This document shows, one piece after another, positions 1 through 38,958 of a stretch of 64,000 nucleotides of DNA. The translations under genes and the position numbers were made by a program. This stretch comes from a bacterium D16-76 (GTDB lineage: Bacteria > Bacillota > Clostridia > Oscillospirales > Acutalibacteraceae). The stretch covers positions 1 through 64,000 of the forward strand of contig QZEE01000013.1 in the NCBI GenBank assembly GCA_009917445.1, in the 5' to 3' direction. The notes under the pieces were generated by a model. It made no database searches. It was not told where the DNA came from and saw nothing but the letters and a program-made list of their open reading frames with translations. Position 1 is the first letter of the stretch. Every line of letters starts with the position of its first letter.

Positions 1-2
1 CG

Positions 3-53
3 GGCTGGCATTGGCTGATGAACAACGGCGGCATTTGCAAAGTGTACGACTAA
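3..53 (+). CDS. 3' end of an unidentified phage gene
   Basis: The window opens inside a reading frame that ends with TAA at 51-53 and yields only 16 residues (ending KVYD). Too little is visible to name it. It is followed by a GC-rich spacer and then a ribosome binding site for the next gene on the same strand, so it probably belongs to the same early operon. Confidence 0.4.
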   Translation, partial: GWHWLMNNGGICKVYD

Positions 54-108
54 AAAGAAGATCGGGCGCGGCAAATGACCGCCGCGCCCGCCTGAAAGGG
101 GCGGAAGA

Positions 109-489
109 ATGAAACTTGACGGGGATTTTGTGCGCGAGGTCAGAAAAAAAGCAAATGGCGACGGAAGCCGTGAAGCGCGATTCGCTTTCATAAAAGAGGT
201 TAAGGAAGCAAGAAAGAAGCTTTCTACCCCGGAAGTGCGGCGCACGTTCGGGGAGTGTATCAAAGAATACGGGAGGGTTCCCGTCGCAATTTGTGTTGGC
301 GCAACGATTATTGAACGCCGCGACAGACTGAAAACACGCACAGTTCGATGGGCAACATCGGTTTTAGAGTTATGGACAAACAAGCCATATTCGGGAATTG
401 CCTTTGCACACATAAATGACAATTTGCACCCCACAAGAATTGAAGAATACGCGGGGGAGTTTATGCGGCTGACAACGGAAGAACCATAA
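109..489 (+). CDS. hypothetical phage early protein, 126 aa
   Basis: The ATG follows a purine-rich ribosome binding site (ggggcgga). The N-terminal 50 residues are strongly basic and helical; the middle has a short hydrophobic segment (VPVAICVGATII), followed by basic residues. No family was recognised. It is first in a chain of closely spaced same-strand small genes, which suggests an early operon accessory role in replication or recombination, but that is position only. Confidence 0.6.
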   Translation: MKLDGDFVREVRKKANGDGSREARFAFIKEVKEARKKLSTPEVRRTFGECIKEYGRVPVAICVGATIIERRDRLKTRTVRWATSVLELWTNKPYSGIAFAHINDNLHPTRIEEYAGEFMRLTTEEP

Positions 490-514
490 ACACAAGAAAC
501 GGGGGTGAAGAATC

Positions 515-802
515 TTGCGGAAATACAGATATTTGACATTCGCAGACCGAAAGCAGATTTCCGCATGGTATCAGTCAAACGACCGTGCGGCGGACATAGC
601 GGTTCGGCTGGGTATGAGCGTAAAAACGATATACCTTGAATTGAAGCGCGGGGAAGAAACGGACGAAAGCGGGGCCGTTATCCTTGACCGCAACCAGCGG
701 CCCGCATACAACCCCGTTCTTGCCCAGCAGAGGTTACAAGCGAACTTCAAGCGGCGCGGGCGCGTCGCGGCGGAGGAAGCGGCAGAAACGGCGGGGGCAT
801 AA
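515..802 (+). CDS. HTH protein resembling the IS30-type N-terminal DNA-binding domain
   Basis: The TTG start follows ggggtgaag. Residues 5-45 (YLTFADRKQISAW...IAVRLGMSVKTIYLELKRG) fit the HTH_38 helix-turn-helix found at the N-terminus of IS30 transposases and in phage regulators. Only about 95 residues are present and there is no DDE catalytic domain, so it is a regulator or small DNA-binding protein rather than a transposase. The C-terminus is Arg/Ala rich. A full-length IS30-type protein lies at the other end of the phage (46871-47908); a functional link between the two is speculative. Confidence 0.6.
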   Translation: MRKYRYLTFADRKQISAWYQSNDRAADIAVRLGMSVKTIYLELKRGEETDESGAVILDRNQRPAYNPVLAQQRLQANFKRRGRVAAEEAAETAGA

Positions 803-833
803 GCCCGCGAAAATCAAACAGGAGGTTTTGACA

Positions 834-1220
834 GTGACAGAGTTTGAACGAATCACAGAAAGCACAGAAACGCTGGCGGCGTTCCTTGCGTCCTTGCCCT
901 GCATTGAGGGGCCGTGGAACGAAGCTTTTCACGAACGGTTCTGCAATTACTGTCCGGCGAAAGATTGCGACAACTGCCAGTATGAGGAATACCGCAACAA
1001 TCCCCTTTGGTGGCTGAAATTGAGGGACGAACCCAGCGAGGGGACGAAACAGGCGGCGAAAAAGCTTGCAGACCTTGTAAAGCGATATTCCGCGCTGGAA
1101 GCCGCAGAACTGCTGGATATATCCTTGAACGCGGCAAAAATTCTGAACGAAGAAAAAGACATTGATTGGGCAATGGCTATCAGCGCGGCGCAGTCAATAG
1201 GAATCTATGACCGGGGATAG
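834..1220 (+). CDS. cysteine-rich hypothetical phage protein, 128 aa
   Basis: The GTG start was chosen because a strong site (aggagg) sits 8 bases upstream; a longer in-frame extension overlaps the preceding gene and lacks such a site. Residues about 38-50 contain C-x2-C-x4-C-x2-C (CNYCPAKDCDNCQ), probably a metal site. The C-terminal half is helical with an HTH-like stretch (SALEAAELLDISLNAAKIL). It ends two bases before a convergent minus-strand gene. Function not recognised; DNA binding is plausible. Confidence 0.6.
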   Translation: MTEFERITESTETLAAFLASLPCIEGPWNEAFHERFCNYCPAKDCDNCQYEEYRNNPLWWLKLRDEPSEGTKQAAKKLADLVKRYSALEAAELLDISLNAAKILNEEKDIDWAMAISAAQSIGIYDRG

Positions 1221-1221
1221 T

Positions 1222-1443
1222 TCACGGGAGAACACGAACGGCACTAATAACCGAATCAAGCCGGAAAACTTCAAGTTTTTGCTGGCGTTCTAACTGTTCT
1301 ATTCTCCATCTTATAGAATCCTGATCTTCACCATACGGCGACAAGGCTTTATAGATATTCCCAAAGCCGACAGCGGGGCCTATATCTTCATATATAGTGG
1401 GCTGAATATGACTTATCAGGTTAAGAAATTGAGCGTCGTTCAT
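1222..1443 (-). CDS. small minus-strand hypothetical protein, 73 aa
   Basis: A lone reverse-strand gene in an otherwise rightward early region. The start MNDAQFLN was chosen because ggaggg lies 9 bases upstream on that strand; a longer form starting at 1485 lacks a site. The sequence is helical and mildly acidic (NLISHIQPTIYEDIG, RWRIEQLERQQKLEV). It converges with the preceding gene across a 1-base gap. No family recognised. Being antisense to the operon direction, it may be expressed in the prophage state. Confidence 0.5.
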   Translation of the reverse strand: MNDAQFLNLISHIQPTIYEDIGPAVGFGNIYKALSPYGEDQDSIRWRIEQLERQQKLEVFRLDSVISAVRVLP

Positions 1444-1515
1444 AGGTGCGAACCCTCCATTCTGTATTTTATTGTATTTTACCACAGAACGGAGAAAAAA
1501 GAAAGGCGGTGAACC

Positions 1516-1872
1516 GTGGAAAAGGGAACTTATGTGATCGAACTTGAGCCGACAGGGCCTAAAGTGGCATTAACCGCAGAGGAACAGGAGTGTATGCGGC
1601 CTATGTTCCGTTATTCCGTTTCCGATTCAGCGGAGTTGACAGAAAGGGAAATTTCAGAAATGGAAGCCACAGAAACGGAAAAGGCCGTTTCCCGATTCCT
1701 TGCAAAGAACAATCCGGAAAAGCGGATAATTGAAATCGGGACGTTCGGGAAAAATGCAATCTTGCTTCATGGTGCGGCAGAGGTTGAAACATTTATAGCC
1801 CTGATTCGACAACAGAGCCGAGAAGCATTTTCAAAAGCGAACCCACAAAAGGAAAGGACGGTGAAAGCATGA
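1516..1872 (+). CDS. hypothetical phage protein, 118 aa
   Basis: Starts at GTG with an upstream aaaggcggtg site. It is acidic and mixed alpha/beta (TYVIELEPTGPKVALT; RIIEIGTFGKNAILLHG) and ends in a charged tail. It overlaps the next small gene by 4 bases (ATGA), indicating translational coupling in the early operon. No homologous family recognised. Confidence 0.55.
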   Translation: MEKGTYVIELEPTGPKVALTAEEQECMRPMFRYSVSDSAELTEREISEMEATETEKAVSRFLAKNNPEKRIIEIGTFGKNAILLHGAAEVETFIALIRQQSREAFSKANPQKERTVKA

Positions 1873-2036
1873 AGCGTCAATTCTGCTTGCCTTGCTTCCT
1901 TGAACTGCAAAAGGCCGGAAAGCACAACATAAAGCGCGTGGGCGGCAGGAATCAGAAAATCACGTGCTGGCGGTGCAAACGCCGCCGCTATGGGACTGAC
2001 TATGAGATTTCCCGAAAGGGGGGCAAAAATGATTAA
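1869..2036 (+). CDS. zinc-ribbon micro-protein, 55 aa
   Basis: This very short gene begins MKRQFCLPCF and carries two CxxC knuckles (CLPC at residues 6-9 and CWRC at 33-36), the arrangement of a small zinc ribbon. The rest is highly basic (KRRRYG). It overlaps the previous gene by 4 bases and the following methyltransferase by 8 bases, so the three are probably translated together. A nucleic-acid-binding role is inferred from charge and zinc-ribbon shape only. Confidence 0.6.
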   Translation: MKRQFCLPCFLELQKAGKHNIKRVGGRNQKITCWRCKRRRYGTDYEISRKGGKND

Positions 2037-3258
2037 GTTTTTAATCGGCGGTTCCCCTTGCACTCATTGGAGTATAGCGCAATGCAAGGCGAGGGAAACA
2101 GAGCCGGACGGAATCGGCTGGGAGTTGTTCAAGAATTATCTTATAGCAAAAGAAAAGTTCCGGCCTGACTTTTTCCTTTATGAAAACAACAAGAGCGCGG
2201 CGCAATCAATCAAAGACCGAATTTCGGAAGAGTTAGAAACGCCCTTGCAGTACATAAATTCCGCCCTTGTGTCGGCGCAGAACCGTTGGCGGTTTTATGC
2301 CCATAACATACCGAGAGTTGAACAGCCGGAAGATCGTCACATTATGCTGGCGGATATTCTGGAAAGCGGGATATGCGACCGCGAAAAAGCAACTTGCCTT
2401 TTGGGGACATACGACCATGCAGGAGCAAGAAACTATTTGAAGAAAAATCACGGGCAAATGATATTTGAGCCTGTAACAGAACAAAGGACTTTCCCCGTGG
2501 GAACTACAACAGACGGGAAAGCGTATTGCCTTACGGCGAACTATGCAAAAGGAAGCAATATCAAACAAACGGTAGGAAGCCGGAAAAGAACACTTGTCGC
2601 TGAAAGTGTGAGTACCCCGGCGGCGTTTGCGGGGCGTGTTGTAGGGTGGCGTATAAACGAAGCAGGACACAGGGACGACTACAACCCGGATATTCCGCAC
2701 ATACAACGCTTTGAAGTAAACATCGACCCGCAAAAGACAAACACAATTTCAACAGTTGGAAAAGATAACATGATAGCAATTCAAACAAACAACACGATGA
2801 AAGAACGCAAGATTTACGAAGTGAGAAATGGGAAAATCCTTTTCAACGGCGTTAGGTATGAAATTGCATTGCCGGACGGGTTTTACACCATTCGTCCGCT
2901 GACCGTTACGGAGTGTTGCCGATTACAGACCTTGCCGGACAATTACTGCTGGATGGCGAAAAAGTCACACGCATACCGAGGGCTGGGGAACGGGTGGACG
3001 GCGGAAGTTATTATACACATTCTTTCCCATGCGCTGGCCGGAATACCGAAAAATGAAGAAATTGTGGTTCTTTCCATGTATGACGGGATAGGAACCGGGC
3101 GTTATTGCTTTGAGAAGCTGGGGTACAAAAACATTCGGTATTTTGCGTATGAAATCGAAAAATCCGAAATGGAAATCGCGTCAACAAATTTCCCCGATAT
3201 AGTGCAATGCGGCGACGCATTCAGCGTTCGGGAAAGCGGATGGGGGTTGCCATTATGA
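2029..3258 (+). CDS. circularly permuted DNA (cytosine-5) methyltransferase
   Basis: Transfers methyl groups to C5 of cytosine in DNA. The 409-residue protein has the canonical motifs in swapped order: catalytic motif IV GGSPCTHWS (Cys11) is at the very N-terminus, then motif VI (YENNK, Glu52), motif VIII (QNRWR, 84-88), motif IX (CCRLQTLPDNY) and motif X (GLGNGW), followed near residue 345 by the cofactor motif I (LSMYDGIGTG), an acidic motif II and motif III (CGDAF). In the usual order motif I comes first. The motif I and IV wording resembles the DNMT3-like branch. Start ATG follows aaagggggg. Likely role: self-modification against host restriction or regulation; specificity unknown. Confidence 0.85.
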   Translation: MIKFLIGGSPCTHWSIAQCKARETEPDGIGWELFKNYLIAKEKFRPDFFLYENNKSAAQSIKDRISEELETPLQYINSALVSAQNRWRFYAHNIPRVEQPEDRHIMLADILESGICDREKATCLLGTYDHAGARNYLKKNHGQMIFEPVTEQRTFPVGTTTDGKAYCLTANYAKGSNIKQTVGSRKRTLVAESVSTPAAFAGRVVGWRINEAGHRDDYNPDIPHIQRFEVNIDPQKTNTISTVGKDNMIAIQTNNTMKERKIYEVRNGKILFNGVRYEIALPDGFYTIRPLTVTECCRLQTLPDNYCWMAKKSHAYRGLGNGWTAEVIIHILSHALAGIPKNEEIVVLSMYDGIGTGRYCFEKLGYKNIRYFAYEIEKSEMEIASTNFPDIVQCGDAFSVRESGWGLPL

Positions 3259-3470
3259 CACGTGACGAACTGAAAGCGGCGTTCGATGAACAATGCCCGG
3301 TCATTCACGGGGGCATTACATATCAGCGCATTTCCGCCCTGATTAGCCGCAGGGAACCCGGAAAGCGGCGGGCGTTCCTGCAAGCTGAACTAATGGACAG
3401 AACCGGGCGTTCGGTTACGATTGCCGACCCTGACAGAATCGAAAGGAGCGGGAGCAATGCCGAAATATGA
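3255..3470 (+). CDS. hypothetical phage protein, 71 aa
   Basis: ATG overlaps the methyltransferase stop (ATGA). The protein (MTRDELKAAFDEQCPV...) is basic in the middle (SRREPGKRRAF) and seems to fold as a small alpha/beta unit. It overlaps the next gene by 14 bases. Very similar short proteins are common in Clostridial phage early operons, but no function is known to me. Confidence 0.55.
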   Translation: MTRDELKAAFDEQCPVIHGGITYQRISALISRREPGKRRAFLQAELMDRTGRSVTIADPDRIERSGSNAEI

Positions 3471-3936
3471 GTTTGTCGCCGTCGATTTCGACGGGACACT
3501 TTGCGCCGACACATTCCCGGAAGTGGGAGAGCCGAAAGCCCTTGTCATTGACTATGTGAAGCGGCTGGCGGCGGAGGGGTCAAAGATCATTCTTTACACC
3601 AGCAGGGAGAACGGAACGCGCCCTTTGCTTAACGAAGCGGTGGCGTTCTGCAAGGCACAGGGAATCCCCCTGTATGCGGTCAATGAGAATCCGGGAAACC
3701 CGCACGCCGCGAAAAACGGTTTGAAGCATTCCGACGGGCGGAAAGTGTTTGCCGATCTTTACATCGACGACAAGGCCGTGAACCCGCTTGCAATCGAAGC
3801 TTTCGGCGCGGCGGAAATTATCGCCCCGGAAGTACAGAGGGTTTCGGCGGTTTTGGGTCAAGTTGTGGAAACGCTGACCCCACCTTTATGGAGAATTGCG
3901 GCATATATGCGGGCGGTCATGAGGGGGACACCATGA
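3457..3936 (+). CDS. HAD-superfamily hydrolase
   Basis: Motif I is VDFDGT with nucleophile Asp10 and acid/base Asp12; motif II is YTSREN; the terminal acidic motif IV is LYIDDKA. The size (159 aa) fits a minimal cap-less HAD phosphatase, such as the polynucleotide or nucleotide phosphatases seen in phages. ATG follows aaaggagcggga. It overlaps both neighbours by a few bases. Substrate unknown; a nucleotide or DNA-end phosphatase role in phage DNA metabolism is an inference from context. Confidence 0.75.
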   Translation: MPKYEFVAVDFDGTLCADTFPEVGEPKALVIDYVKRLAAEGSKIILYTSRENGTRPLLNEAVAFCKAQGIPLYAVNENPGNPHAAKNGLKHSDGRKVFADLYIDDKAVNPLAIEAFGAAEIIAPEVQRVSAVLGQVVETLTPPLWRIAAYMRAVMRGTP

Positions 3937-4223
3937 AGCCAATCAAGATTGAACGCCGGAAACCTGTACGGCCCCGCAGGAAGCGGCAGGGGGTCCCGTG
4001 GTATGAACGGGCGGAAGTCTGGACCGTTGCGAAATATGCGGTCCTGACCCTTGCGGGAATTATGCTTTTTCAAGCGGGACAAGCCCGCGCCCTGATCGAC
4101 CGCGGCTATGCCGCAATAGGCGGAGAAGTGTTCACCCTGTTTCTGCCAGCCTATTATTTCATCATTTCAAAGCTTGCCCGCGACGTTATCGCGGACAAGC
4201 AGGGCAATTCAAAAAATAATTAG
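3933..4223 (+). CDS. small membrane protein, 96 aa
   Basis: A strongly basic N-terminus (KIERRKPVRPRRKRQG) precedes two hydrophobic segments (about residues 31-48 and 64-80) separated by a short loop; the C-terminus is charged. By the positive-inside rule the N-terminus should be cytoplasmic. It overlaps the HAD gene (ATGA) and lies 14 bases before the distal DGR target gene, so the two may be co-expressed. No family recognised. Confidence 0.55.
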   Translation: MKPIKIERRKPVRPRRKRQGVPWYERAEVWTVAKYAVLTLAGIMLFQAGQARALIDRGYAAIGGEVFTLFLPAYYFIISKLARDVIADKQGNSKNN

Positions 4224-4237
4224 GAGGTCAAAGGACC

Positions 4238-5011
4238 ATGAAAAGACTACAACTTTCAACCCTGAAAGACGGTGCGCGGTTCGTTTATGGCGGCGTGGAA
4301 TGGGTCAAGCTTGAACATCTATACACTGAATCCGGCAAACTGGAAACGGTTGCCATTGCCGCCGAACCCGTCTTTGAACGGGCTTTCGATGAAGAAAACT
4401 GCAACGATTGGCGCAAGTCGTCCTTGCGCCGGGAACTGAACGGCCCGTTCCTTGACACGCTGATTGCAGAGGGCGCAGACCCGGCGGCGTTCAAGGAGTT
4501 TGAAAGCGATCTGACCGCCGACGACGGTATGACGGACTACGGAACCGCGCGGGACAAGATCGCCCTGATTACGTGCGATCTTTACCGCGAACACCGGGCT
4601 TTGCTTCCGAAAATCGGGTGCTGGTGGTGGACGCTGACCCCGTGGACGTGCGACCCTGAATACTCGTACTACGTCCGCGGCGTCGGTTCCTCCGGCGCGG
4701 TGAACTGGAACTACGCGTACTACGGCCACTGGGGCGTTCGCCCGCTTTGTCATTTGGAATCTTCAATCTTTGTATCTGTTCCAGATGAAGAGGGAATGCA
4801 GATGAACAGGGGCGAAGCTATCGAGGAAGCCCGCGACGCGGTGCTGGACACGCTGAACGACTACCCCGCGGACCTTTGGGGCGACGCGCTGGGCGCGGCG
4901 GTTGCGTCCCTCTTCCAATCAAAGCAGGACGCGGCAGACATGGCAGAGGAAGAAAAAGCAAGTCGAGAGATCAGCACGACCGAAACGGAACCGCCAGAGG
5001 GGATTTTTTAA
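4238..5011 (+). CDS. distal DGR target 1: DUF6273-type protein with variable repeat
   Basis: A 257-residue protein preceded by a strong taggagg site. The first 170 residues resemble the DUF6273 / C-type-lectin-like fold used as a DGR scaffold (EWVKLEH..., SSLRRELNGPFLDTL, ending GVRPLCHL). Residues 142-171 are the variable repeat, whose DNA matches the TR beside the reverse transcriptase except at TR adenines. The C-terminal 85 residues are acidic and helical and absent from the other target. There is no signal peptide or membrane segment, and the gene sits in the early region, 33 kb from the RT. Its ligand is unknown; an intracellular or regulatory binding role is only an inference. Confidence 0.85.
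   Translation: MKRLQLSTLKDGARFVYGGVEWVKLEHLYTESGKLETVAIAAEPVFERAFDEENCNDWRKSSLRRELNGPFLDTLIAEGADPAAFKEFESDLTADDGMTDYGTARDKIALITCDLYREHRALLPKIGCWWWTLTPWTCDPEYSYYVRGVGSSGAVNWNYAYYGHWGVRPLCHLESSIFVSVPDEEGMQMNRGEAIEEARDAVLDTLNDYPADLWGDALGAAVASLFQSKQDAADMAEEEKASREISTTETEPPEGIF
4661..4749 (+). repeat. DGR variable repeat VR1
   Basis: Aligned without gaps to TR 37512-37600, the 89 bases differ at 11 positions and every one is an adenine in TR (for example AAC to TAC, AAC to GGC, AAT to GGT, AGG to TGG). The 3' end is invariant (ggggcgttcgcccgctttg), the expected initiation-of-mutagenic-homing segment. Substituted codons are mostly AAC in TR, whose randomisation cannot create stop codons because the third base is C. 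Confidence 0.95.
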
Positions 5012-5118
5012 GCCCGCCGCGGTAAAAACTGCATAAGAAAACCGCCCCGCGCGTTTTGAGAGAACGCGCGAAGCAGATTCCGCCGATGAAAATAAATCAT
5101 CAATCAACCTATGGATAA

Positions 5119-5147
5119 AGTATAGCATAGATCGGCGGAAAAGTCAA
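5119..5147 (-). promoter_or_regulatory. leftward promoter with flanking inverted repeat
   Basis: Read on the minus strand there is TTGACT, a 17-base spacer and TATACT. A perfect 10-bp inverted repeat (ttccgccgat at 5078-5087, atcggcggaa at 5131-5140) places one arm in the spacer and the other about 30 bases into the transcript, centres 53 bp apart. A GC hairpin (5048-5055 with 5063-5070) lies about 45 bases downstream. The transcript would be a short RNA or antisense to the end of the distal DGR target. Confidence 0.5.
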
Positions 5148-5324
5148 CAAAGAACGCCGTTTTTATGCGGCGTGGCGGGCTTGTAGTGGGTATTAAGATT
5201 CCGGCGAAAGCTTGTCCACGTCATACAGGAAGCAACGGGGAGATCAGCAGGGTTCGGCCCTTGCCCTTTGTTCTTTTCTCTTGTCTATATCTCTTCATAC
5301 GCCGCCGAGGGTGATGGGGGGATT
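5148..5324. other. non-coding part of the intergenic region before rep
   Basis: No credible gene. A weak hairpin (acgccg at 5154-5159 with cggcgt at 5168-5173) lies just upstream of the leftward promoter. The rest is unremarkable sequence leading to the large inverted repeat before the replication initiator. Confidence 0.5.
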
Positions 5325-5375
5325 GCAAGGGGGGAAGAGGGAGGGGGCGATCATTGAACCCTCTTCCCCCCTTGC
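5325..5375. repeat. 17-bp perfect inverted repeat, candidate replication origin
   Basis: The arm gcaaggggggaagaggg (5325-5341) is the exact reverse complement of 5359-5375, with a 17-base loop. The purine arm is followed on the same strand by a pyrimidine arm, giving a very stable hairpin 73 bases upstream of the HUH initiator gene. HUH initiators typically nick in or next to such hairpins, so this is the best origin candidate. A terminator is less likely because no T-run follows. Confidence 0.5.
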
Positions 5376-5448
5376 ATGGATTAGTTAGCAGACAGCCGGA
5401 AACAGAACACGCCCGCTTCATTCATCGACAGAAAGAGGGTGAAGCACG

Positions 5449-6270
5449 GTGCGAAGTTTCATTCGTGAAAAGAAAATCTATTGCGGCAAGCAATATCGGG
5501 AGGTTGATATTTTTTCATACACCGACGCGCAATGCAGGGCAGTAAAACGCGGCACACGGTCAAAGAAGATCAAAGAATCGGAGCAGAAGCAAAAGAACCT
5601 GAACGACAAGAACGCCCGCCGCTATTTCATTCAGACCGCAAACTTGAATTTCGGGGACGACCCGGACGCGTTGCACGTGACGGCTACATATAGCGCGAAA
5701 TATCTTCCAGCGACCATAGAGGAAGCCGAACGGGAAGTGACAAACTACTTGCGCCGGATTCAGTATCAGCGGAAGAAAGAGGGGTTGCCGCCCCTAAAGT
5801 ATATGCTTGTCACGGCCTACGCCACAAAGAAAAACAGCGAAAAGCCCGTTCGCATTCACCATCATATCATCATGAACGGCGGACTTGATCGGGACGCGGT
5901 GGAAGAGTTGTGGCGCAAGCGAAAGCGCAAGGGGCAGAAAAAGGGCGACCGAATCGGCTATTGCAACGCCGACCGTCTGCAAGCAAGCGACGACGGCATT
6001 GCCGCCCTTTGCAATTACCTTGTCAAACAGGCTGGCGGGAAAAAGCGGTGGACATCTTCACACAATTTGGAGCGGCCCACAAGCCGAACGAACGACGGCA
6101 AGTACAATCGGCGGCAGATTGAGAAATGGGCGCGGGAGCGTCCGGGCCGGGAGTTTTGGGAAAAGAAATACCCCGGCTGGACCCTGACAGACAGCGATTA
6201 CGGGGTTCAGTACGAATATAACGATTACACAGGCTGGTCAATCTATCTGAAATTGCGAAAGAAAGAATAG
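5449..6270 (+). CDS. rep: HUH-type replication initiator (Rep)
   Basis: A 273-residue protein starting at GTG after gagggtgaag. Residues 133-143 (PVRIHHHIIMN) hold the His-hydrophobic-His metal motif of HUH endonucleases. Downstream, Tyr190 in CNYLVKQ is in the right position for the nicking tyrosine. The N-terminal half is basic with a YFIQTANLNFG strand. The family nicks one strand at an origin and starts rolling-circle replication, staying on the 5' end. The upstream hairpin and distant ParA/ParB genes suggest replication of an episomal form. Relaxase activity for mobilisation cannot be excluded. Confidence 0.75.
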   Translation: MRSFIREKKIYCGKQYREVDIFSYTDAQCRAVKRGTRSKKIKESEQKQKNLNDKNARRYFIQTANLNFGDDPDALHVTATYSAKYLPATIEEAEREVTNYLRRIQYQRKKEGLPPLKYMLVTAYATKKNSEKPVRIHHHIIMNGGLDRDAVEELWRKRKRKGQKKGDRIGYCNADRLQASDDGIAALCNYLVKQAGGKKRWTSSHNLERPTSRTNDGKYNRRQIEKWARERPGREFWEKKYPGWTLTDSDYGVQYEYNDYTGWSIYLKLRKKE

Positions 6271-6285
6271 AAAGGGGTGGTTATC

Positions 6286-6471
6286 ATGGGAAAGCCTTAC
6301 AGGGAATGCCCCCATTGCGGGGCGCATTTGGACGCGGGCGAACGGTGCGATTGCGGGGAACCTGAACAACAGGAACAGACCGCGGCGGAAGAACGACCGC
6401 GAATGCGGCTGATTGCCGTTTGCCGGGAAGTGGACAAGGACACGGGCAGAATCGCCGTTATCTGCTTGTGA
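6286..6471 (+). CDS. zinc-ribbon protein, 61 aa
   Basis: Four cysteines in CPHCGAHLDAGERCDCG (residues 8-24) form a rubredoxin-like zinc knuckle, followed by an acidic linker. The ATG is 7 bases after aaagggg. It shares its stop with the start of the next gene (GTGA), so translation is coupled. Function unknown; a small adaptor or nucleic-acid-binding role is typical for such phage proteins. Confidence 0.6.
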   Translation: MGKPYRECPHCGAHLDAGERCDCGEPEQQEQTAAEERPRMRLIAVCREVDKDTGRIAVICL

Positions 6472-6689
6472 CAAAGGACATCGAAAACGCCGCATACCGT
6501 GTCGAGCGGCTAAAGCGGTTAAAGGGTATCAACCTTTACGCACAGGCGGAGCGGAACGACCGAAAAGGCATTGTTCCGAACGCATTACAAAAAGAGTTCG
6601 CCCAGCGGTTTGTCTATGGGCGGTGCTATCTGAAAGAAAGCTGGGCCGAATACCTGACCCGGCATAAAGAAAAGAGGTTGCGGCAATGA
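6468..6689 (+). CDS. hypothetical basic protein, 73 aa
   Basis: The GTG start overlaps the preceding stop codon (GTGA). The product (VTKDIENAAYRVERLKRLKGINL...) is helical, basic and ends KEKRLRQ; it overlaps the HD-domain gene by 4 bases. An upstream TTG at 6420 in the same frame is possible but would run 52 bases into the zinc-ribbon gene. No family recognised. Confidence 0.5.
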   Translation: MTKDIENAAYRVERLKRLKGINLYAQAERNDRKGIVPNALQKEFAQRFVYGRCYLKESWAEYLTRHKEKRLRQ

Positions 6690-7228
6690 CGAACGCAAAA
6701 CGCTTCAAGGAAATTTTCGTGTCGCAGATTGACCGCCCCGGCGCGGCTGATCTGATAGCATGGCTTGAAAGCACAGACTTTTTCACAGCCCCGGCAAGCA
6801 CAAAACATCACGGCGCATTCCCCAGCGGGCTTGTCGGTCACAGTCTGAACGTATATTACGAACTGATTACACGGCAGAACGTCGGAACCCCGGAAAGCCG
6901 GGCCGTTTGCGCCCTACTGCATGACATTTGCAAGGCGGACTATTACGAACCGCAGGACGGCGGCGGGTATCAGGTGAAAGACCGCTTCCCGTTCGGACAC
7001 GGTGAAAAGTCGGTTTTCCTGATTTCGCGGTTTATGCGGCTGACCGATGAAGAAGCCCTTGCAATCCGCTGGCACATGGGAGCGTATGACGACGCGGCCC
7101 GCGGCGGAAGCCGGACACTTTCGGCGGCAATGGCGGTTTCCCCTCTTGTCTATGAACTTCACGCGGCGGACATGAGGGCGACACAGCAGGAACAGCGGCA
7201 GGAAGCGGGGGCAGAAAATGAACAGTGA
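6686..7228 (+). CDS. HD-domain phosphohydrolase
   Basis: The 180-residue protein shows the HD signature: His52 (LVGHSLNVYYEL), His79-Asp80 (ALLHDICKADYY), further histidines in FGHGEKS and RWHMGAYD, and a downstream aspartate. Such small HD proteins hydrolyse phosphomonoesters or phosphodiesters in nucleotides, and in phages they may alter nucleotide pools or second messengers. Start overlaps the preceding stop (ATGA) and the 3' end overlaps the next gene by 11 bases. The exact substrate cannot be read from sequence. Confidence 0.75.
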   Translation: MTNAKRFKEIFVSQIDRPGAADLIAWLESTDFFTAPASTKHHGAFPSGLVGHSLNVYYELITRQNVGTPESRAVCALLHDICKADYYEPQDGGGYQVKDRFPFGHGEKSVFLISRFMRLTDEEALAIRWHMGAYDDAARGGSRTLSAAMAVSPLVYELHAADMRATQQEQRQEAGAENEQ

Positions 7229-7601
7229 TTACTTACGAAAACAGATCGAGCGGCAAAGCGACCTTTTGAAAAAAAGATGGAACGGCGAAGAGGGCGACCC
7301 GGACGTTTGGAATCTGGAATACATGATTACAGAGATTCGCCCCGGTTCCCGCGCATGGAATAGGGGGGTTATACGGTCCTTGCGGCGAGCAATTAAAGCT
7401 TTGGAGCGGGAGGGCAGAGAAAGCGGCGGGGGCTTGATATGCGCCGTATGCGGAAAGCCCGTCGAGCGGGTCAAGCCGTGCGGGTACGAACGCTGGAACG
7501 GGCAAGTTACTTGCGACGAATGTTGCGAAGAATGCTTTCGATCAGAGCCGTTCCCGTGTCGGGACCATGACGAACGAATGAAAGAGAAATCGGAGGGATA
7601 G
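7218..7601 (+). CDS. cysteine-rich zinc-binding phage protein, 127 aa
   Basis: The N-terminal 70 residues are helical and basic (DYLRKQIERQSDLLKKRW). The C-terminal part has many cysteines: CAVCGKPV, then CDECCEECF and CRDHDERM, enough for two zinc sites. It overlaps the HD gene by 11 bases and is followed by an ATG after gagggatag. No named family recognised; zinc binding is inferred from the cysteine spacing. Confidence 0.55.
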   Translation: MNSDYLRKQIERQSDLLKKRWNGEEGDPDVWNLEYMITEIRPGSRAWNRGVIRSLRRAIKALEREGRESGGGLICAVCGKPVERVKPCGYERWNGQVTCDECCEECFRSEPFPCRDHDERMKEKSEG

Positions 7602-7604
7602 CAA

Positions 7605-8204
7605 ATGCAGATCGACAAGCGGCGTGCGGCCTTGCAGTATCAAAACAAGGTGAACAACGCGCAGGGGCATTTTTTCGAGGGGGCCATAAAAGCCGCGTGC
7701 GCCCTGTATTCGGAGCGGGAGCGGGCCGACGTGGACAAGACCCCCGAACCGTTCCGCGTCATAGAGAAAGGCCGCGACGGGATTTTCAAGGGGCGGTTCA
7801 CAGCCCGCGCCCAGCCGGACTTTCAAGGAACCCTTGCGGGCGGGCGGTCAATCGTCTTTGAAGCAAAGTACACAACGACCGACCGCATGAAACGGGACGT
7901 TCTGACAAAGGAACAGCAGGACGCGCTGGAGCGTCACGCCGCCCGCGGTGCGCTTGCCGCGGTATGCGCCGGAATCGGCGACAAGTTCTTTTTCGTGCCG
8001 TGGCAAATGTGGCGGGATATGAAACAGCTTTACGGGCGAAAGTACGTGACAGCGGCAGACCTTGAGCCGTGGCGGGTGCGGTTCAATGGCGCGGTTCTCT
8101 TTCTTGACTATATCCACGAAAGGAGCGGGAATAATGCAAAAGCAGAAACAGCACAAGCGGAAATTAACGGTTCGTGTCACGCCGCAAACGGCGTTCAACC
8201 TTGA
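7605..8204 (+). CDS. RecU-like Holliday junction resolvase
   Basis: A PD-(D/E)xK nuclease core is visible: ARAQPDFQGTLAGGRSIVFEAKYT with Asp72, Glu86 and Lys88, the arrangement of RecU / penicillin-binding-protein-related-factor nucleases. The N-terminal helix (NKVNNAQGHFFEGAIKA) is also typical. Length of 199 aa is close to RecU. It would cut four-way junctions during phage recombination or replication. The last 24 codons overlap the next small gene in another frame. Confidence 0.75.
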   Translation: MQIDKRRAALQYQNKVNNAQGHFFEGAIKAACALYSERERADVDKTPEPFRVIEKGRDGIFKGRFTARAQPDFQGTLAGGRSIVFEAKYTTTDRMKRDVLTKEQQDALERHAARGALAAVCAGIGDKFFFVPWQMWRDMKQLYGRKYVTAADLEPWRVRFNGAVLFLDYIHERSGNNAKAETAQAEINGSCHAANGVQP

Positions 8205-8304
8205 ACGGCTTATGCAGATCAGCGGGCAGAAAACGCCGGGCCGGGTGGTTGACAAGCTGGTTCGGGAGAAAATGCTGGCGTTAAGGGGCCGCGGGGAGGA
8301 ATAA
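8134..8304 (+). CDS. ribbon-helix-helix-type small protein, 56 aa
   Basis: ATG follows aaaggagcgggaata. After a Lys/Gln-rich leader, KLTVRVTPQTAFNLERLMQ gives a beta strand and helix in the style of Arc/CopG RHH DNA-binding proteins, with a second helix (TPGRVVDKLVREKM). It overlaps the end of the resolvase by 71 bases. It could be a local repressor; its target is unknown. Confidence 0.55.
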   Translation: MQKQKQHKRKLTVRVTPQTAFNLERLMQISGQKTPGRVVDKLVREKMLALRGRGEE

Positions 8305-8307
8305 GCC

Positions 8308-9294
8308 GTGTTTGACCTGAACCGCCTTTATAACGCTGATTGCATGGAAGCAATGAAAGAAATACCCGACAAATTCTTTCAGCTTGCTATATGTGACCCG
8401 CCTTATGGTATCGGGCATGACGGACAGCGCAAGCGGGTACATAACAACGTGAAGCACAACCGCAAGTTTCACGCCCGCAAGGGCTGGGACAGAGAAACGC
8501 CGCCGCCTGAATACTTCCGCGAACTGGAACGGGTTTCGGAAAATCAAATAATTTTCGGTGGGAATTACTTTGTCCCCATGCTGAACCGCGGGACAAAGGG
8601 CTGGGTGGTTTGGGACAAGGGCCAGCACGGGCTATCAATGAGCGATTGCGAACTTGCCTATTCGTCCTTTGACTGTCCGACGCGGGTTGTCGTTATCAAT
8701 CGGGCTGAACTGCAACGGGACGGGGACACCATACACCCGACACAAAAGCCCGTCCGCCTGTATGAATGGATATTGCGCAACTATGCCCGCCCCGGCGACA
8801 GAATCCTTGACACACACGCCGGGAGCGCGTCAAGCCTGATTGCGTGCTGGCGGCAGGGGTTCGAGTTCGTCGGCTTTGAGATTGACCGCGACTATTACAA
8901 GAAAGCGTCGGAGCGGTTAGCGGTAGAAATGGCGCAAATTCGCCTTTGGGACTATGACGCGCAAACAAAGATCGAAGATCGAAATGGAGGAATCAACATG
9001 AGAGCGGGAGCAATTCTAATTGTCGTCTATTGGGCGATATTCACGGTGAAAAGGCACTTCACGCCGCGCCTGACAGCGGCTATAAAGGCGAACACGTATG
9101 ACCTGAACAGGAATGACCCGGAAGCAAAGCGGGCCGCACAGCGCAAGCGTGGGCCGCTTACGGCGGCAAAATGGGCCTTGCGTGTAGCGGGATGGGCTGA
9201 AAACGTCCTGATTACCCTTGTTCTGGCTTGGCTTGTGTTCGTTGTCGGCACGGTGCTGACTGGAACCGTCGTCGTATTTGGGAAACCGTTGTAA
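8308..9294 (+). CDS. N6-adenine/N4-cytosine DNA methyltransferase fused to a membrane domain
   Basis: Residues 1-230 form a beta-class amino-methyltransferase: catalytic DPPY at residues 30-33, then the S-adenosylmethionine motif LDTHAGSASSLIAC near residue 170 and GFEFVGFEIDRDYY. Family members normally stop soon after this point. Here the frame stays open for 98 more residues with two hydrophobic segments. A strong ribosome binding site and ATG occur at the junction (8998), so the downstream part probably also has its own product. GTG start at 8308. Confidence 0.8.
   Translation: MFDLNRLYNADCMEAMKEIPDKFFQLAICDPPYGIGHDGQRKRVHNNVKHNRKFHARKGWDRETPPPEYFRELERVSENQIIFGGNYFVPMLNRGTKGWVVWDKGQHGLSMSDCELAYSSFDCPTRVVVINRAELQRDGDTIHPTQKPVRLYEWILRNYARPGDRILDTHAGSASSLIACWRQGFEFVGFEIDRDYYKKASERLAVEMAQIRLWDYDAQTKIEDRNGGINMRAGAILIVVYWAIFTVKRHFTPRLTAAIKANTYDLNRNDPEAKRAAQRKRGPLTAAKWALRVAGWAENVLITLVLAWLVFVVGTVLTGTVVVFGKPL
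8998..9294 (+). CDS. internal start: small membrane protein, 98 aa
   Basis: In the same frame as the methyltransferase, ATG is preceded by atggaggaatcaac, one of the best ribosome sites in this operon. The product has a hydrophobic segment at residues 3-14 (GAILIVVYWAIF) and another near the C-terminus (VLITLVLAWLVFVVGTVLTG), with a basic loop between. Independent translation is therefore likely; loss of a stop codon would explain the apparent fusion. No family recognised. Confidence 0.55.
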   Translation: MRAGAILIVVYWAIFTVKRHFTPRLTAAIKANTYDLNRNDPEAKRAAQRKRGPLTAAKWALRVAGWAENVLITLVLAWLVFVVGTVLTGTVVVFGKPL

Positions 9295-9308
9295 GGGAGG
9301 TGGCGGCG

Positions 9309-9521
9309 GTGAAATATCAGGAATGCGCGAAATGCGGAAAGCGGATTGCAAAGAGCGAAACCGTTTGCCCGTGTTGCCTGAAAGAAACCGCGGAAGCCGC
9401 GGCCCATGAATTGTGGGACATTGCCCGCATTCTGGAAATAACAGCAGGGACAGACGCAAACATTCGGGACGCGGCGCGGGGTATCACAAGCATTGCGGAG
9501 AAGTTAGAAAGGGGGAAATAA
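9309..9521 (+). CDS. zinc-ribbon protein, 70 aa
   Basis: GTG follows gggagg. Cysteines in YQECAKCGKRI and VCPCCLKET form a two-knuckle zinc ribbon, followed by a helical tail (AHELWDIARILEITAG). Fifteen bases separate it from the membrane-protein gene. Small zinc-ribbon proteins recur in this operon; their function is unknown. Confidence 0.6.
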   Translation: MKYQECAKCGKRIAKSETVCPCCLKETAEAAAHELWDIARILEITAGTDANIRDAARGITSIAEKLERGK

Positions 9522-9523
9522 TC

Positions 9524-9763
9524 ATGGAATTTATCAGATTCATTCTTTCGGGGTTTTGGACATGGGGCGGGTTCCTGATTCTGCTTGTTGCGGCGGGGAA
9601 TGCCGCCGCGGAGATCGTCAAGGCCATTTGCCCGCGCCGGAAAATCGACGCATACCGAATCGGAGAACGCTGGCACGTCCAGATCGAGGGCGCACGCCGC
9701 GGCGACGTTGCCGAAATGCTGAAAGCGGCGGGAGCGGCAGACGACACGGGGGTGGGTGTATGA
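9524..9763 (+). CDS. small single-pass membrane protein, 79 aa
   Basis: ATG follows aaagggggaaataatc. Residues 4-32 (IRFILSGFWTWGGFLILLVAAGNAAAEIV) span the membrane, followed by a basic cytoplasmic part. It overlaps the next gene by 4 bases. No family recognised. Confidence 0.55.
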   Translation: MEFIRFILSGFWTWGGFLILLVAAGNAAAEIVKAICPRRKIDAYRIGERWHVQIEGARRGDVAEMLKAAGAADDTGVGV

Positions 9764-10215
9764 ATGCCGCGCTTTTCAGCAGTAAGAAGATGGACTATTG
9801 CACGCCGCAAGCCTTTTTCGACGCGCTGAACAGGGAATTTCATTTCACCCTTGACGCGGCGGCAACGGCAAAAAGCGCAAAATGCCCCGCATACTACACG
9901 CCCGAAACCGACGGGCTGAAAAGCCCGTGGAAAGTTGCGGAGGGTGCTGTATTCTGCAACCCTCCATACGGGCGCGAAGTCGGCAAGTGGGTTCGCAAAG
10001 CCTATGAGGAAGCGCAGGGCGGCGCGACCGTCGTTTTGCTGATTCCGGCCCAGACGGACACAACATACTTTCACGACTACATATACGGGAAAGCTGAAAT
10101 CAGATTTATTCGCGGGCGGTTGCGCTTCACCGATGAAGAGGGCAACGCATACGCCCCCGCCCCGTTTCCGTCAATGGTAGTTGTCTACAATGGAGAAAAG
10201 GAGGTTCAGACGTGA
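9760..10215 (+). CDS. phage DNA N6-adenine methyltransferase (Dam_phage type)
   Basis: This 151-residue protein begins MNAALFSSKKMDYCTP and contains catalytic NPPY at 67-70 inside VFCNPPYGREVGKW, a hallmark of the phage Dam-like N6-adenine family. Length agrees with that family. It is the third methyltransferase in the early region. ATG overlaps the preceding stop; the end overlaps the ASCH gene by 4 bases. Probable role: methylation of phage DNA to resist host restriction. Confidence 0.85.
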   Translation: MNAALFSSKKMDYCTPQAFFDALNREFHFTLDAAATAKSAKCPAYYTPETDGLKSPWKVAEGAVFCNPPYGREVGKWVRKAYEEAQGGATVVLLIPAQTDTTYFHDYIYGKAEIRFIRGRLRFTDEEGNAYAPAPFPSMVVVYNGEKEVQT

Positions 10216-10625
10216 AAGCCTACACGGTATATCAACCCTACGCATACGCGACCGTTGCGGGGCTGAAACATTACGAAACCCGCCCGCGGCGGACAAGCAT
10301 TCGGGGCCGCGTCGCGGTTCATGCGGGGAAAGCAGAATTGAAGCGTGCAACAATGGGGCTTTCAGATAATGACTTTTGGGGCCTTATGCAAGCCGTCGGC
10401 GGGAAAACGGTATTGCCGCTGGGCGCAGTTGTCGGCACGGTTGAAATTGTCGATTGCGTCCCCGTGGAAGAGATCATGCACAAGCTGACCGAGCGGGAGC
10501 GGGTGCTGGGCGACTATTCGCCGGGGCGGTTCGCATGGGTGCTTCAAAACCCCATCATGTTTGAAAAGTCCATTCCGGCCCGCGGCAAGCAAGGCTGGTG
10601 GAATTGGGAGGGGGACGCGGAATGA
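10212..10625 (+). CDS. ASCH-domain protein
   Basis: The N-terminus KAYTVYQPYAYATVAGLKHYETR and the segment GRVAVHAGK...LGAVVGTVEIVDC fit the ASCH beta-barrel, an RNA-binding fold related to PUA that some members use as a nuclease or hydrolase of modified cytidine. The GTG start overlaps the Dam gene; the end overlaps the next gene. It may act on RNA or modified nucleosides; the substrate is unknown. Confidence 0.75.
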   Translation: MKAYTVYQPYAYATVAGLKHYETRPRRTSIRGRVAVHAGKAELKRATMGLSDNDFWGLMQAVGGKTVLPLGAVVGTVEIVDCVPVEEIMHKLTERERVLGDYSPGRFAWVLQNPIMFEKSIPARGKQGWWNWEGDAE

Positions 10626-11993: not shown

Positions 11994-12766
11994 GTGAAAA
12001 TCATTTCAATTATCAACCTGAAAGGCGGCGTTGCAAAAACGCTGACCGCTGACAACATGGCCCACGTTCTGGCAGTTTTCCACAGTAAGCGGGTGTTGAT
12101 TGTGGATAACGACAAGCAAGGAAACACGTCAAAAATGTTCGGGGTTCATTCCTACGACGACAAGAGCATTTCGGACGTACTGACCGCGCGACGTCTGGAC
12201 ATTCACGAAGCCATAAAGAAAACCCGTTTCGAGGGTATCGACGTATTGCCCGCTAATATGACGCTGATTCGCGCGAATCTGGAAGTCATGATGGAGATAG
12301 TACCCGCCCGCAACAAACGCGCTTGCGGGCCGCGCTGGACCCCATAGCGGGCGAATATGACTATTGCTTGATAGACAATGCCCCTGACATAAATATTTCG
12401 ACCATAAACGCCCTTGTCGCGTCCGACGACGTGATTATTCCGATCAAGATTGACAAATACGCCTTTGACGGTTTGGCGGAACTGAAAGAACAGATCAAGG
12501 ACACGCGGGACGACCTAAACCCCCGCTTGCGGCTGGCGGGTTGCCTGATTACCTGTTTTCAGCGGACGGACGCGGACAAGCAAGGTGAAGAGTGGTTGCG
12601 GAGCCAGCCGGAATACCCGGTTTTCGACACGCACATTCGCTATTCGGAAAAGGTCACGGAAAGCACCTTTGCAGAATCCCCCATTGCCGAATACAGCCGC
12701 CGGAGCGGGGCCGCAATGGACTATATAGCGTTTGTGCGGGAGTATTTAGAGCGCGGGAAGAAATAG
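11994..12766 (+). pseudogene. parA: ParA/Soj-like partition ATPase interrupted by a one-base frameshift
   Basis: The first frame (11994-12347) has the deviant Walker A motif KGGVAKT (residues 10-16) and VDNDKQGNTS. The second (12323-12766) continues the family with YCLIDNAPDI and DVIIPIKIDKYAFDG. Adding one G within 12294-12297 (atggagatag to atggaggatag) restores a single 258-residue frame reading MEDSTRPQQTRLRAALDP. No slippery heptamer is present, so a sequencing/assembly error or a recent mutation are the two explanations. If intact it would segregate the episome together with ParB, encoded immediately downstream. Confidence 0.8.
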
Positions 12767-36819: not shown

Positions 36820-37043
36820 CGGAATATGCTTGCACACGCCGGGAACTGTCCTGCATAATTGGGAACCTGTTTACAGAGATTGAACCGCCTTGCGAACGGT
36901 GCGGGGCCGCTGACGTGCTGACGATCAGCGGGACAACCTACACCGGGGCGCGGGCGGTTCTTACTGTCACAGAACACGGGTTCACGTTTGACGGGGACCC
37001 GGCGGAGGTTGCGCGAATCAGGGAAAGGCGGTGTTTGAAATGA
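36813..37043 (+). CDS. small cysteine-containing protein between fibre and Avd, 76 aa
   Basis: ATG was chosen by overlap with the fibre stop. Four cysteines (ACTRRELSCI..., PPCERCGAAD) could bind metal. It overlaps the avd start (ATGA), so it is probably translated with the DGR operon. It could be a tail-tip accessory protein. No family recognised. Confidence 0.5.
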   Translation: MLTEYACTRRELSCIIGNLFTEIEPPCERCGAADVLTISGTTYTGARAVLTVTEHGFTFDGDPAEVARIRERRCLK

Positions 37044-37471
37044 ACCCGCCGCCGAAACAAGCTGAACAAAGCGAATTTACCATAATCGCAAAGGCGAAAG
37101 ACCTTGTAAAGCATACATTCCGAATGACGAATGACAGGCGTTTTCCGAAAAAGTATCGCTTTACCATTGTAAACCGATTACACGACCTGACGATTGATAT
37201 TTTCCAGCATATACAGGAAGCAAACGAACTTGACCTTGCCGACCTGCAAGAGTTCCGCGAACGGAGATACGAACAGAAAAAGGCTTTGACAAAATGCAAG
37301 ACAGTCCTTTTTCTGATTGAACTTTCCCTTGAACTGGAACTTATTTCAAACGATCAATGCGCCGCATGGACAAAAGCCGTTTTGGACGTTAAGTACATGA
37401 CGGCGAAGTGGCGCAAGCAAGATCAGCAGAGGGCGGCAACTATGCAGAGAGGGACCCCGGCGCGGCGATAA
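37040..37471 (+). CDS. avd: accessory variability determinant Avd
   Basis: 143 residues, almost entirely helical: EFTIIAKAKDLVKHTFRMTNDRRFPKKYRFTIVNRLHDLTIDIFQHIQEAN, then a KKALTKCKTVLFLIELSLELELISND helix and a basic tail. This is the five-helix barrel Avd family, which binds DGR RT and TR RNA. The ATG is 7 bases after aaaggcgg and overlaps the preceding stop. Order Avd-TR-RT is the standard DGR layout. Confidence 0.85.
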   Translation: MNPPPKQAEQSEFTIIAKAKDLVKHTFRMTNDRRFPKKYRFTIVNRLHDLTIDIFQHIQEANELDLADLQEFRERRYEQKKALTKCKTVLFLIELSLELELISNDQCAAWTKAVLDVKYMTAKWRKQDQQRAATMQRGTPARR

Positions 37472-37490
37472 AGCCCGCCGGGTTTTCTTT
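37456..37490 (+). terminator. hairpin with T-rich tail at the end of avd
   Basis: cccggcg (37456-37462) pairs with cgccggg (37476-37482), followed by ttttcttt. It spans the avd stop codon and lies 16 bases before the template repeat. It may uncouple avd from the TR/RT transcript or be part of the structured TR RNA. Confidence 0.5.
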
Positions 37491-37505
37491 GGGGTATGCC
37501 TTGTA

Positions 37506-37600
37506 GCGTCCAACTCGTACAACGTCCGCAACGTCAATTCCTCCGGCGCGATGAACTGGAACAACGCGTACAACGGCAACAGGGGCGTTCGCCCGCTTTG
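37506..37600 (+). repeat. DGR template repeat TR
   Basis: 95 non-coding bases between Avd and RT contain 22 adenines, nine AAC codons among them, in the frame of the targets. It aligns without gaps to VR2 over 95 bases and to VR1 over 89 bases. It ends in the invariant ggggcgttcgcccgctttg. Transcribed RNA would be copied by the RT with adenine-specific errors and the cDNA would replace VR. Confidence 0.95.
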
Positions 37601-37836
37601 GTGGATTTCCGCGATTGAGTAAGCCAAAAGCCGAAAACAGAGGCCCACTATCAAAGGAAGGTGTATCCCTCCGCCGCGGTGAGAGGGCGGCGGTAAATAC
37701 AAGATTGGTGAAGCAAGGCCCACGGGAACCAGCTTCCGCCCCGCCGCGGGCGCGTGGCGGGGTCCGATGATGAAGCATTGACGGGGTGGGAAACGCCCTG
37801 CAAGGCGGATTCTATACACGGCAAGGAGTTTTTATA
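37601..37836 (+). other. non-coding spacer from TR to RT
   Basis: No credible gene. The region is GC-rich and able to fold. In DGRs the RNA downstream of TR is required for cDNA priming, so this is probably the 3' part of the TR RNA. The RT start at its end is set by aaggag 10 bases upstream. Confidence 0.6.
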
Positions 37837-38913: not shown

Positions 38914-38958
38914 AACCCTATTTGAAGAAAAACTTTCAGAAAAGGAGTGTGTCACATA

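Follow-up and report, generated by a model that had tools for sequence, protein, structure and literature searches.

Diversity-generating retroelements (DGRs) are usually read as tools for altering what the virion sticks to. The prophage within the stretch of DNA analysed here (the window; bases 1–64,000 of a 104,553-bp contig) carries a variable repeat (VR2) in the gene next to its reverse transcriptase (RT) and a second one (VR1) about 33 kb away, in the early region. This arrangement raises the question of whether the remote gene, tgt2, is a genuine target of the same template repeat (TR) and, if so, where its variable product would act.

One template repeat and two variable repeats

The DGR cassette of the window consists of an Avd-like gene, the TR, the RT gene and the first target, tgt1, which encodes a tentaclin (Table 1). 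tgt1 holds VR2, and is fed by the TR that it has in common with VR1. As originally predicted, VR1 aligns with the TR over 89 nt without gaps, and all 11 mismatches fall on TR adenines (P = 1.9e-8, hypergeometric, with 22 A in the 89 positions of the TR). A BLAST search of the TR neighbourhood (37301–37900) against the window returned two partners at E≤1e-3, VR1 (4662–4749, E 9.6e-28) and VR2 (39622–39716, with 15/15 mismatches at A); one further match at E≤0.01 is 27 nt long and unrelated. All six near-identical VR1 copies compared have a T at TR position 1. This position may be a fixed difference outside the mutated tract, which probably starts after 4662, and the safe count for VR1 is then 10/10 over 88 nt. 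Features that mark a DGR with a remote target were found: differences confined to adenines, an RT beside the TR, an Avd gene, and VRs that vary while the TR stays constant.

Table 1. Positions of the two targets, the DGR cassette and neighbouring features in the window.
Feature	Position	Strand	Evidence or remark
C5-methyltransferase	1990–3258		
Hydrophobic 111-aa ORF	3888–4223	+	15 nt gap upstream of tgt2; kept there in close relatives
tgt2, 257-aa DUF6273 / phrog_9958 protein with predicted C-type-lectin-like domain	4238–5011	+	profiles and AlphaFold2 model
VR1, variable repeat of the remote target	4661–4749	+	11/11 mismatches to TR at adenines
3′ tag after VR1	4760–4777	+	TCTTCAATCTTTGTATCT
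Acidic C-terminal extension of tgt2 (residues 185–257)	4790–5008	+	predicted helices 191–207 and 211–247
Replication initiator (Rep)	5449–6270	+	phrog_3584, 272 bits; Pfam REP_ORF2-G2P
RecU-like resolvase	7605–8204		
DNA methyltransferase	8344–9294		
Avd-like accessory protein	37040–37471	+	phrog_3206 (Avd protein of DGR), 106 bits
TR, template repeat between avd and RT	37512–37600	+	match to VR2 starts at 37506
DGR-type reverse transcriptase	37786–38913	+	Pfam RVT_1, 49.8 bits; phrog_1423, 434 bits (start taken at 37837)
tgt1, tentaclin / Hoc-like head decoration protein	38947–40677	+	DUF6273, 105 bits; phrog_10993 (Hoc-like), 806 bits
VR2 in tgt1	39622–39716	+	15/15 mismatches to TR at adenines
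3′ tag after VR2	39727–39744	+	TCTTCAATCTTGGTATCT

The TR region of ‘Clostridiaceae bacterium strain 9’ (locus L263 of genome G428, contig QXXE01000014.1) is identical to that of the window over 451 nt. The tgt2 genes of the two strains differ at 14 of 774 nt, all in VR1, and the tentaclin genes at 16 of 1731 nt, all in VR2; thus, all 30 changes in both target genes are at VR sites that correspond to TR adenines. The tgt2 genes of two metagenomes (L010 and L011) differ from each other at 10 positions, all in VR1 at TR adenines, and from the window gene at 12 and 13 sites, of which 10 and 11, respectively, are in VR1. For another relative (L264, genome G429), 9 of 27 differences in tgt2 lie in VR1 and 11 of 50 in the tentaclin gene lie in VR2, and every one of these VR differences is at a TR adenine (9/9 and 11/11). 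Six VR1 copies all agree with the TR at its 67 non-A sites, and 59 of their 132 A sites are changed; the corresponding figure for seven VR2 copies is 83 of 154 A sites. Aligning VR1 across strains was the check proposed with the original prediction, and nowhere among the strains compared was VR1 invariant where VR2 varies. The claim that one RT/TR pair diversifies both a virion-type and an early-region gene is likewise borne out, as both VRs are rewritten between strains. On these genome comparisons, tgt2 is a genuine DGR target that has been rewritten recently in nature. The strain pair also offers ready-made natural variants of both targets.

A second, deleted prophage in the same genome as the window (L038, G000:C103, 2736–3641) contains a VR that matches the window TR at 67 of 67 non-A sites. 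It was considered as a third target, a host gene rewritten in trans, and this was rejected because the gene is the truncated tentaclin of the deleted prophage. The prophage at L016/L041 (G010:C107) has been cut down by several deletions, one of which begins inside VR1. Its gene that matches only residues 1–145 was rejected as a different protein, being a deletion remnant from which VR1 and much else have been lost. Several TR-like and VR-like matches occur on five contigs (C1, C2, C4, C6 and C8; L277–L292) of the metagenomic genome G429, which suggests several two-target DGR prophages in one host.

Two-target phages and a shared 3′ tag

In ten other phages, a remote VR in tgt2 differs from the phage's own TR mostly or wholly at adenines. 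Eleven TR/VR/VR triplets were compared (the window, nd12, nd4, Lelie, Toutatis, G264, G146, G091 and L015, with 3300010280_7 and 3300006428_45 from IMG/VR), in which TR adenines account for 120 of 128 mismatches in tgt2 and 137 of 143 in tgt1; a twelfth phage, G004, gives 7/7 and 10/10, respectively. Four of the triplets are related and have 89-nt repeats; at non-A sites, both VRs in three of these are closest to the TR of the same phage, and VR1 of the remaining one (3300010280_7) agrees with its TR at 66 of 67. Such tracking would be the outcome of one TR being copied repeatedly into the two genes. In ten phages for which the distance was measured, tgt2 lies 11.7–37.9 kb from the TR (32.9 kb in the window), and the two are 5 kb apart in L015, a 10-kb contig without late genes. 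In the latter (1–10334), the early genes run directly into the DGR cassette and the late genes between them are absent, so that it is either a deletion form or an assembly artefact. Among ten host contigs with phrog_9958 matches, remote pairs are present in three (G264, G146 and G091), TR-VR pairs lie near the TR in G095, and G020 has VR2 only, the tgt2 region being absent from its contig. No TR-VR pair was found in the other five, for some of which part of the contig was searched.

Both target types, and many relatives, contain a linear, AT-rich tag 3′ of the VR, of the approximate form TCTNNNATCTTNGTATCT and with rare codons. Over the 30 nt after the cysteine codon, tgt2 and the tentaclin gene agree at 25 positions, a level reached by none of 50,000 random synonymous recodings. 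In a set of 32 different 18-mers taken from loci of both target types, the two tag serines are encoded by TCT in 25/32 and 23/29 cases (background 11%) and never by AGC or AGT, and the tag valine by GTA in 21/27 (background 18%), although these counts are inflated by shared descent and the background includes some non-coding open frames. Variants of the tag have TCC/ATC instead of TCT/GTA in the nd4/G146 group, and GTC in Lelie, Toutatis and G264. None of the TRs examined is followed by this block. With one mismatch allowed, ATYTTNGTATCT occurs at 3 sites in the window compared with 1.2 expected; this motif alone is weak evidence, and it is the codon-choice test that carries the argument for a tag. 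No inverted repeat of at least 7 was found within 160 nt around the end of VR1 or VR2, the best stems being 6 and 5, and a hairpin or cruciform of the BPP-1 type is present 3′ of neither VR. Described phage DGRs have such a hairpin, which is not an established requirement of DGRs in general. We propose that the shared 3′ block is a target tag, of which we found no report in the open-licence literature searched.

In the mechanism that we envisage, the RT would copy TR RNA with errors at adenines, and the resulting cDNA would replace the VR in the tentaclin gene and in tgt2, 33 kb away. The cDNA could reach the remote gene because tgt2 shares with the tentaclin gene both the 3′ end of the VR and the short 3′ tag. 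The tag thereby offers a way to approach the recognition of remote genes as targets. With each round, the lectin-like domain of tgt2 would acquire a new version of its hairpin (see below).

The scaffold of this domain outside the VR is under purifying selection, as judged from dN/dS values of 0.10–0.30 in seven pairwise comparisons; the tail gives 0.26–0.66. Values of dS are low in the VR (0 to 0.22) compared to the scaffold (0.35 to 1.02), as would follow from the resetting of synonymous sites by the TR. These ratios bear on whether VR1 is a passive by-product, that is, a duplicated lectin domain that still catches cDNA and gains nothing from the variation. Indeed, tgt2 is most like tentaclin in the VR and the following 30 nt, as might be expected of a by-product. 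However, the reading frames are intact, the scaffold is constrained as above, and the target VR, its 3′ end and the tag are kept in distant phages, so that we regard this already disfavoured explanation as very improbable.

The tgt2 protein and its early neighbours

The tgt2 protein matches Pfam DUF6273 (33.9 bits over residues 126–175) and phrog_9958, a family whose function is not annotated (217 bits, residues 2–189). The latter was detected in 41 of 394 genomes of the order, a figure to which distant, secreted DUF6273 proteins contribute, and which should not be read as the number of tgt2 genes. An AlphaFold2 model computed from 32 window and locus sequences has block-mean pLDDT values of 93–98 for residues 1–180; it supersedes a first model from 12 sequences, in which the VR was of low confidence and which had no significant PDB match. 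The model consists of one lectin-like domain followed by helices, with neither an Ig-like part nor a fibre-attachment domain in its 257 residues. The VR (residues 142–171) is predicted to form a surface hairpin with strands at 145–149 and 155–159. The tail helices are modelled at modest confidence (pLDDT 58–75). A Foldseek search of the PDB returned a single match at E≤0.001, the IgA peptidase 9qa6 (E 3.9e-7, TM 0.47), which is taken as fold similarity only. The search of viral models gave 21 matches, many of them named DUF6273, and these also include a ‘Receptor Binding Protein’ (E 1.8e-4) and long tail-like proteins.

The C-terminal extension had been described as acidic and unique. It is acidic, with a net charge of −13 over 73 residues, but it is not unique, since all five relatives measured have tails with net charges of −11 to −14; the distant relative L022 is without it. 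The lack of a signal peptide is consistent with hydropathy, on which this assignment rests (19-residue maximum of 0.15 within the first 45 residues). Virion proteins need no signal peptide and, therefore, its absence does not separate tgt2 from a virion protein.

Profile searches confirmed the predicted setting among replication and methylase genes, with tgt2 located between the C5-methyltransferase and Rep. A phosphohydrolase-like gene, the RecU-like resolvase and methyltransferases come after Rep, and the terminase, portal, capsid, sheath and tape-measure genes are found at 15–31 kb, well past tgt2. Neighbours were surveyed at 49 loci with clustering tgt2 genes (56 were considered, of which 6 had no usable gene call). 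In 19 of these 49 loci, Rep-like genes are among the six genes that follow tgt2; SSB-like genes are nearby in 12, and an exonuclease-like gene is at +1 in 9. Among the 25 commonest PHROG families, the 75 tgt2 neighbours (11 phages) include methyltransferases, replication initiation, a polymerase exonuclease subunit and a transcriptional regulator, as well as lipoprotein, endolysin and protease families with 2 members each, and the 50 tgt1 neighbours (8 phages), limited in the same way, include RT, Avd, endolysins, and head and virion proteins. The early-module position of tgt2 is also seen in nd12, nd4, Lelie and Toutatis.

Further along the window, a ParA-like gene is present as two overlapping ORFs (11994–12766), each matching a different part of phrog_164, and is followed by a ParB-like gene at 12800. 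Together with the rolling-circle-type Rep, these genes give a plasmid-like look to a contractile-tailed prophage.

Some relatives of tgt2 are in frame with additional domains. These include DUF3310 in L183 (4100–4972, 58 bits), a Lar restriction alleviation domain in L187 (5935–6810, 30.9 bits with a cut-off of 28.6; phrog_599, 34.8 bits), and a MazG-type pyrophosphatase in L164 (2755–3834; phrog_3301, 114 bits). The L187 junction contains a ribosome-binding-site-like AAAGGAG before an ATG, and the Lar and tgt2 parts may be made as separate products too. The tgt2 of nd12, which is of the fused type with DUF3310, has 13/13 mismatches to its own TR at A. No TR was found on the contigs of L164, L183, L187 and L189. 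Lar, DUF3310 and MazG-like domains are cytoplasmic, early types of phage protein. From these fusions and the early-module address, we infer that tgt2 acts inside the cell. The Lar and MazG-like fusions, of which we found no report in the open-licence literature searched, favour a cytoplasmic role over the published guess of receptor binding.

Thus, our preferred reading, to which we assign a probability of roughly 0.6, is that tgt2 is a recently active second DGR target and a cytoplasmic early protein, whose variable hairpin binds an intracellular partner. As a product of the early module, the protein would be synthesised in the cytoplasm, and its hairpin would bind a variable protein of the host or of a rival element, most likely one that is encountered during counter-defence or host takeover. 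What points to counter-defence is the gene neighbourhood and the one relative in frame with Lar. The lectin-like fold counts against this reading, since it is a common binding fold and the viral models matched include the ‘Receptor Binding Protein’ mentioned above. The lipoprotein, endolysin and protease families among the tgt2 neighbours, the possible separate products of L187 and the five contigs that gave no TR-VR pair weigh against it as well.

Alternatively, tgt2 may be a receptor-binding or other virion protein similar to Mtd, or may be encoded early, packaged and injected, with diversification serving host range. Phage DGR targets are mostly virion binding proteins, and the tgt2 proteins of nd4 and nd12, for which a C-lec model and variation have been described, were guessed to have a Mtd-like receptor-binding role, according to the available part of PMC10743442. 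The predicted location of the VR on a surface hairpin of a C-lec-like domain is in line with such a role. Set against it are the early-module address in five phages (the window, nd12, nd4, Lelie and Toutatis), the lack of a fibre-attachment domain, and the fusions of relatives to cytoplasmic-type domains. In addition, tgt2 is dispensable, since 39 of 54 nd4-like genomes have both targets and those with a single target retain tentaclin (PMC10743442, as available). We consider a virion role unlikely.

A further possibility is that tgt2 functions in the lysogen or at the membrane, where it could, for instance, contribute to superinfection exclusion together with the hydrophobic protein encoded 15 nt upstream, its variants being matched to rival phages. 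The prophage setting and the position of the upstream ORF, whose cluster is at −1 of tgt2 in 10 loci, fit this possibility. The ORF has no Pfam or PHROG match. However, its cluster is limited to closer relatives (11 of 49 loci) and tgt2 bears no export signal, which makes such a role less probable still than one in the virion.

If the preferred reading of an intracellular binder is correct, programmed hypermutation in phages may be directed at a protein with a role inside the host cell. A wider extension of it would be a form of adaptive counter-immunity, in which the DGR diversifies a binder that acts inside the cell, at times as a fusion with anti-restriction or nucleotide-processing domains, and in which many variants of this binder are tried on the defence proteins of each new host, while the same template diversifies the virion adhesin and the 3′ tag enrols any gene that carries it. 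We offer this idea tentatively, as one that is possible rather than probable.

Comparison with known systems

Remote second DGR targets, also beside methyltransferases, have already been published (PMC12629997, PMC10743442 and PMC11792537, each as available in part). The two-target arrangement itself is, therefore, already known and its novelty is low. The Lar and MazG-like fusions and the 3′ tag were not seen in the open-licence literature searched, and this locus adds a clear case of natural rewriting of the second target.

The window resembles nd4 and nd12 in having one TR, a tentaclin beside the RT and a small DUF6273 tgt2 away from the RT, with both VRs varying between related genomes (PMC10743442, available sections). 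The match of the TR to both VRs was found again here in the nd4 and nd12 records. The distance between TR and tgt2 is 11.7–14.1 kb in these phages compared to 32.9 kb in the window, and the nd12 protein has an N-terminal DUF3310-like part (PMC10743442, as above), whereas the tgt2 of the window does not. Early genes, replication and cytoplasm are not mentioned in the part of PMC10743442 covered by a term search.

The Faecalibacterium phages Lelie and Toutatis and the candidate CP11 have a large and a small DUF6273 target, as in the window (PMC11792537 and PMC5883640, the latter describing Faecalibacterium DGRs; both as available in part). Their tgt2 proteins share 33–35% identity with that of the window over most of the length. 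The remote VR mismatches are at TR adenines in 15 of 17 cases in Lelie and 13 of 14 in Toutatis. Population variation at both VRs has been described for CP11, and no VR activity for the Lelie reads, in the accessible portion of PMC11792537. Four inducible gut prophages, likened here by description only, have a distal second VR near counter-defence genes and, as in the window, close to DNA methyltransferase genes (PMC12629997, in part).

The Bordetella phage BPP-1 shares the RT, Avd, TR and adenine-specific rewriting with the window. In BPP-1, the 24 bp directly after the VR, which include a hairpin, are required, and moving the 3′ VR end with the hairpin to another gene resulted in retargeting (PMC3240598, available part). 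BPP-1 has one target, with a hairpin/cruciform 3′ of the VR (7–10 bp stem, GRNA loop), whereas the window has two targets, each followed by a linear tag.
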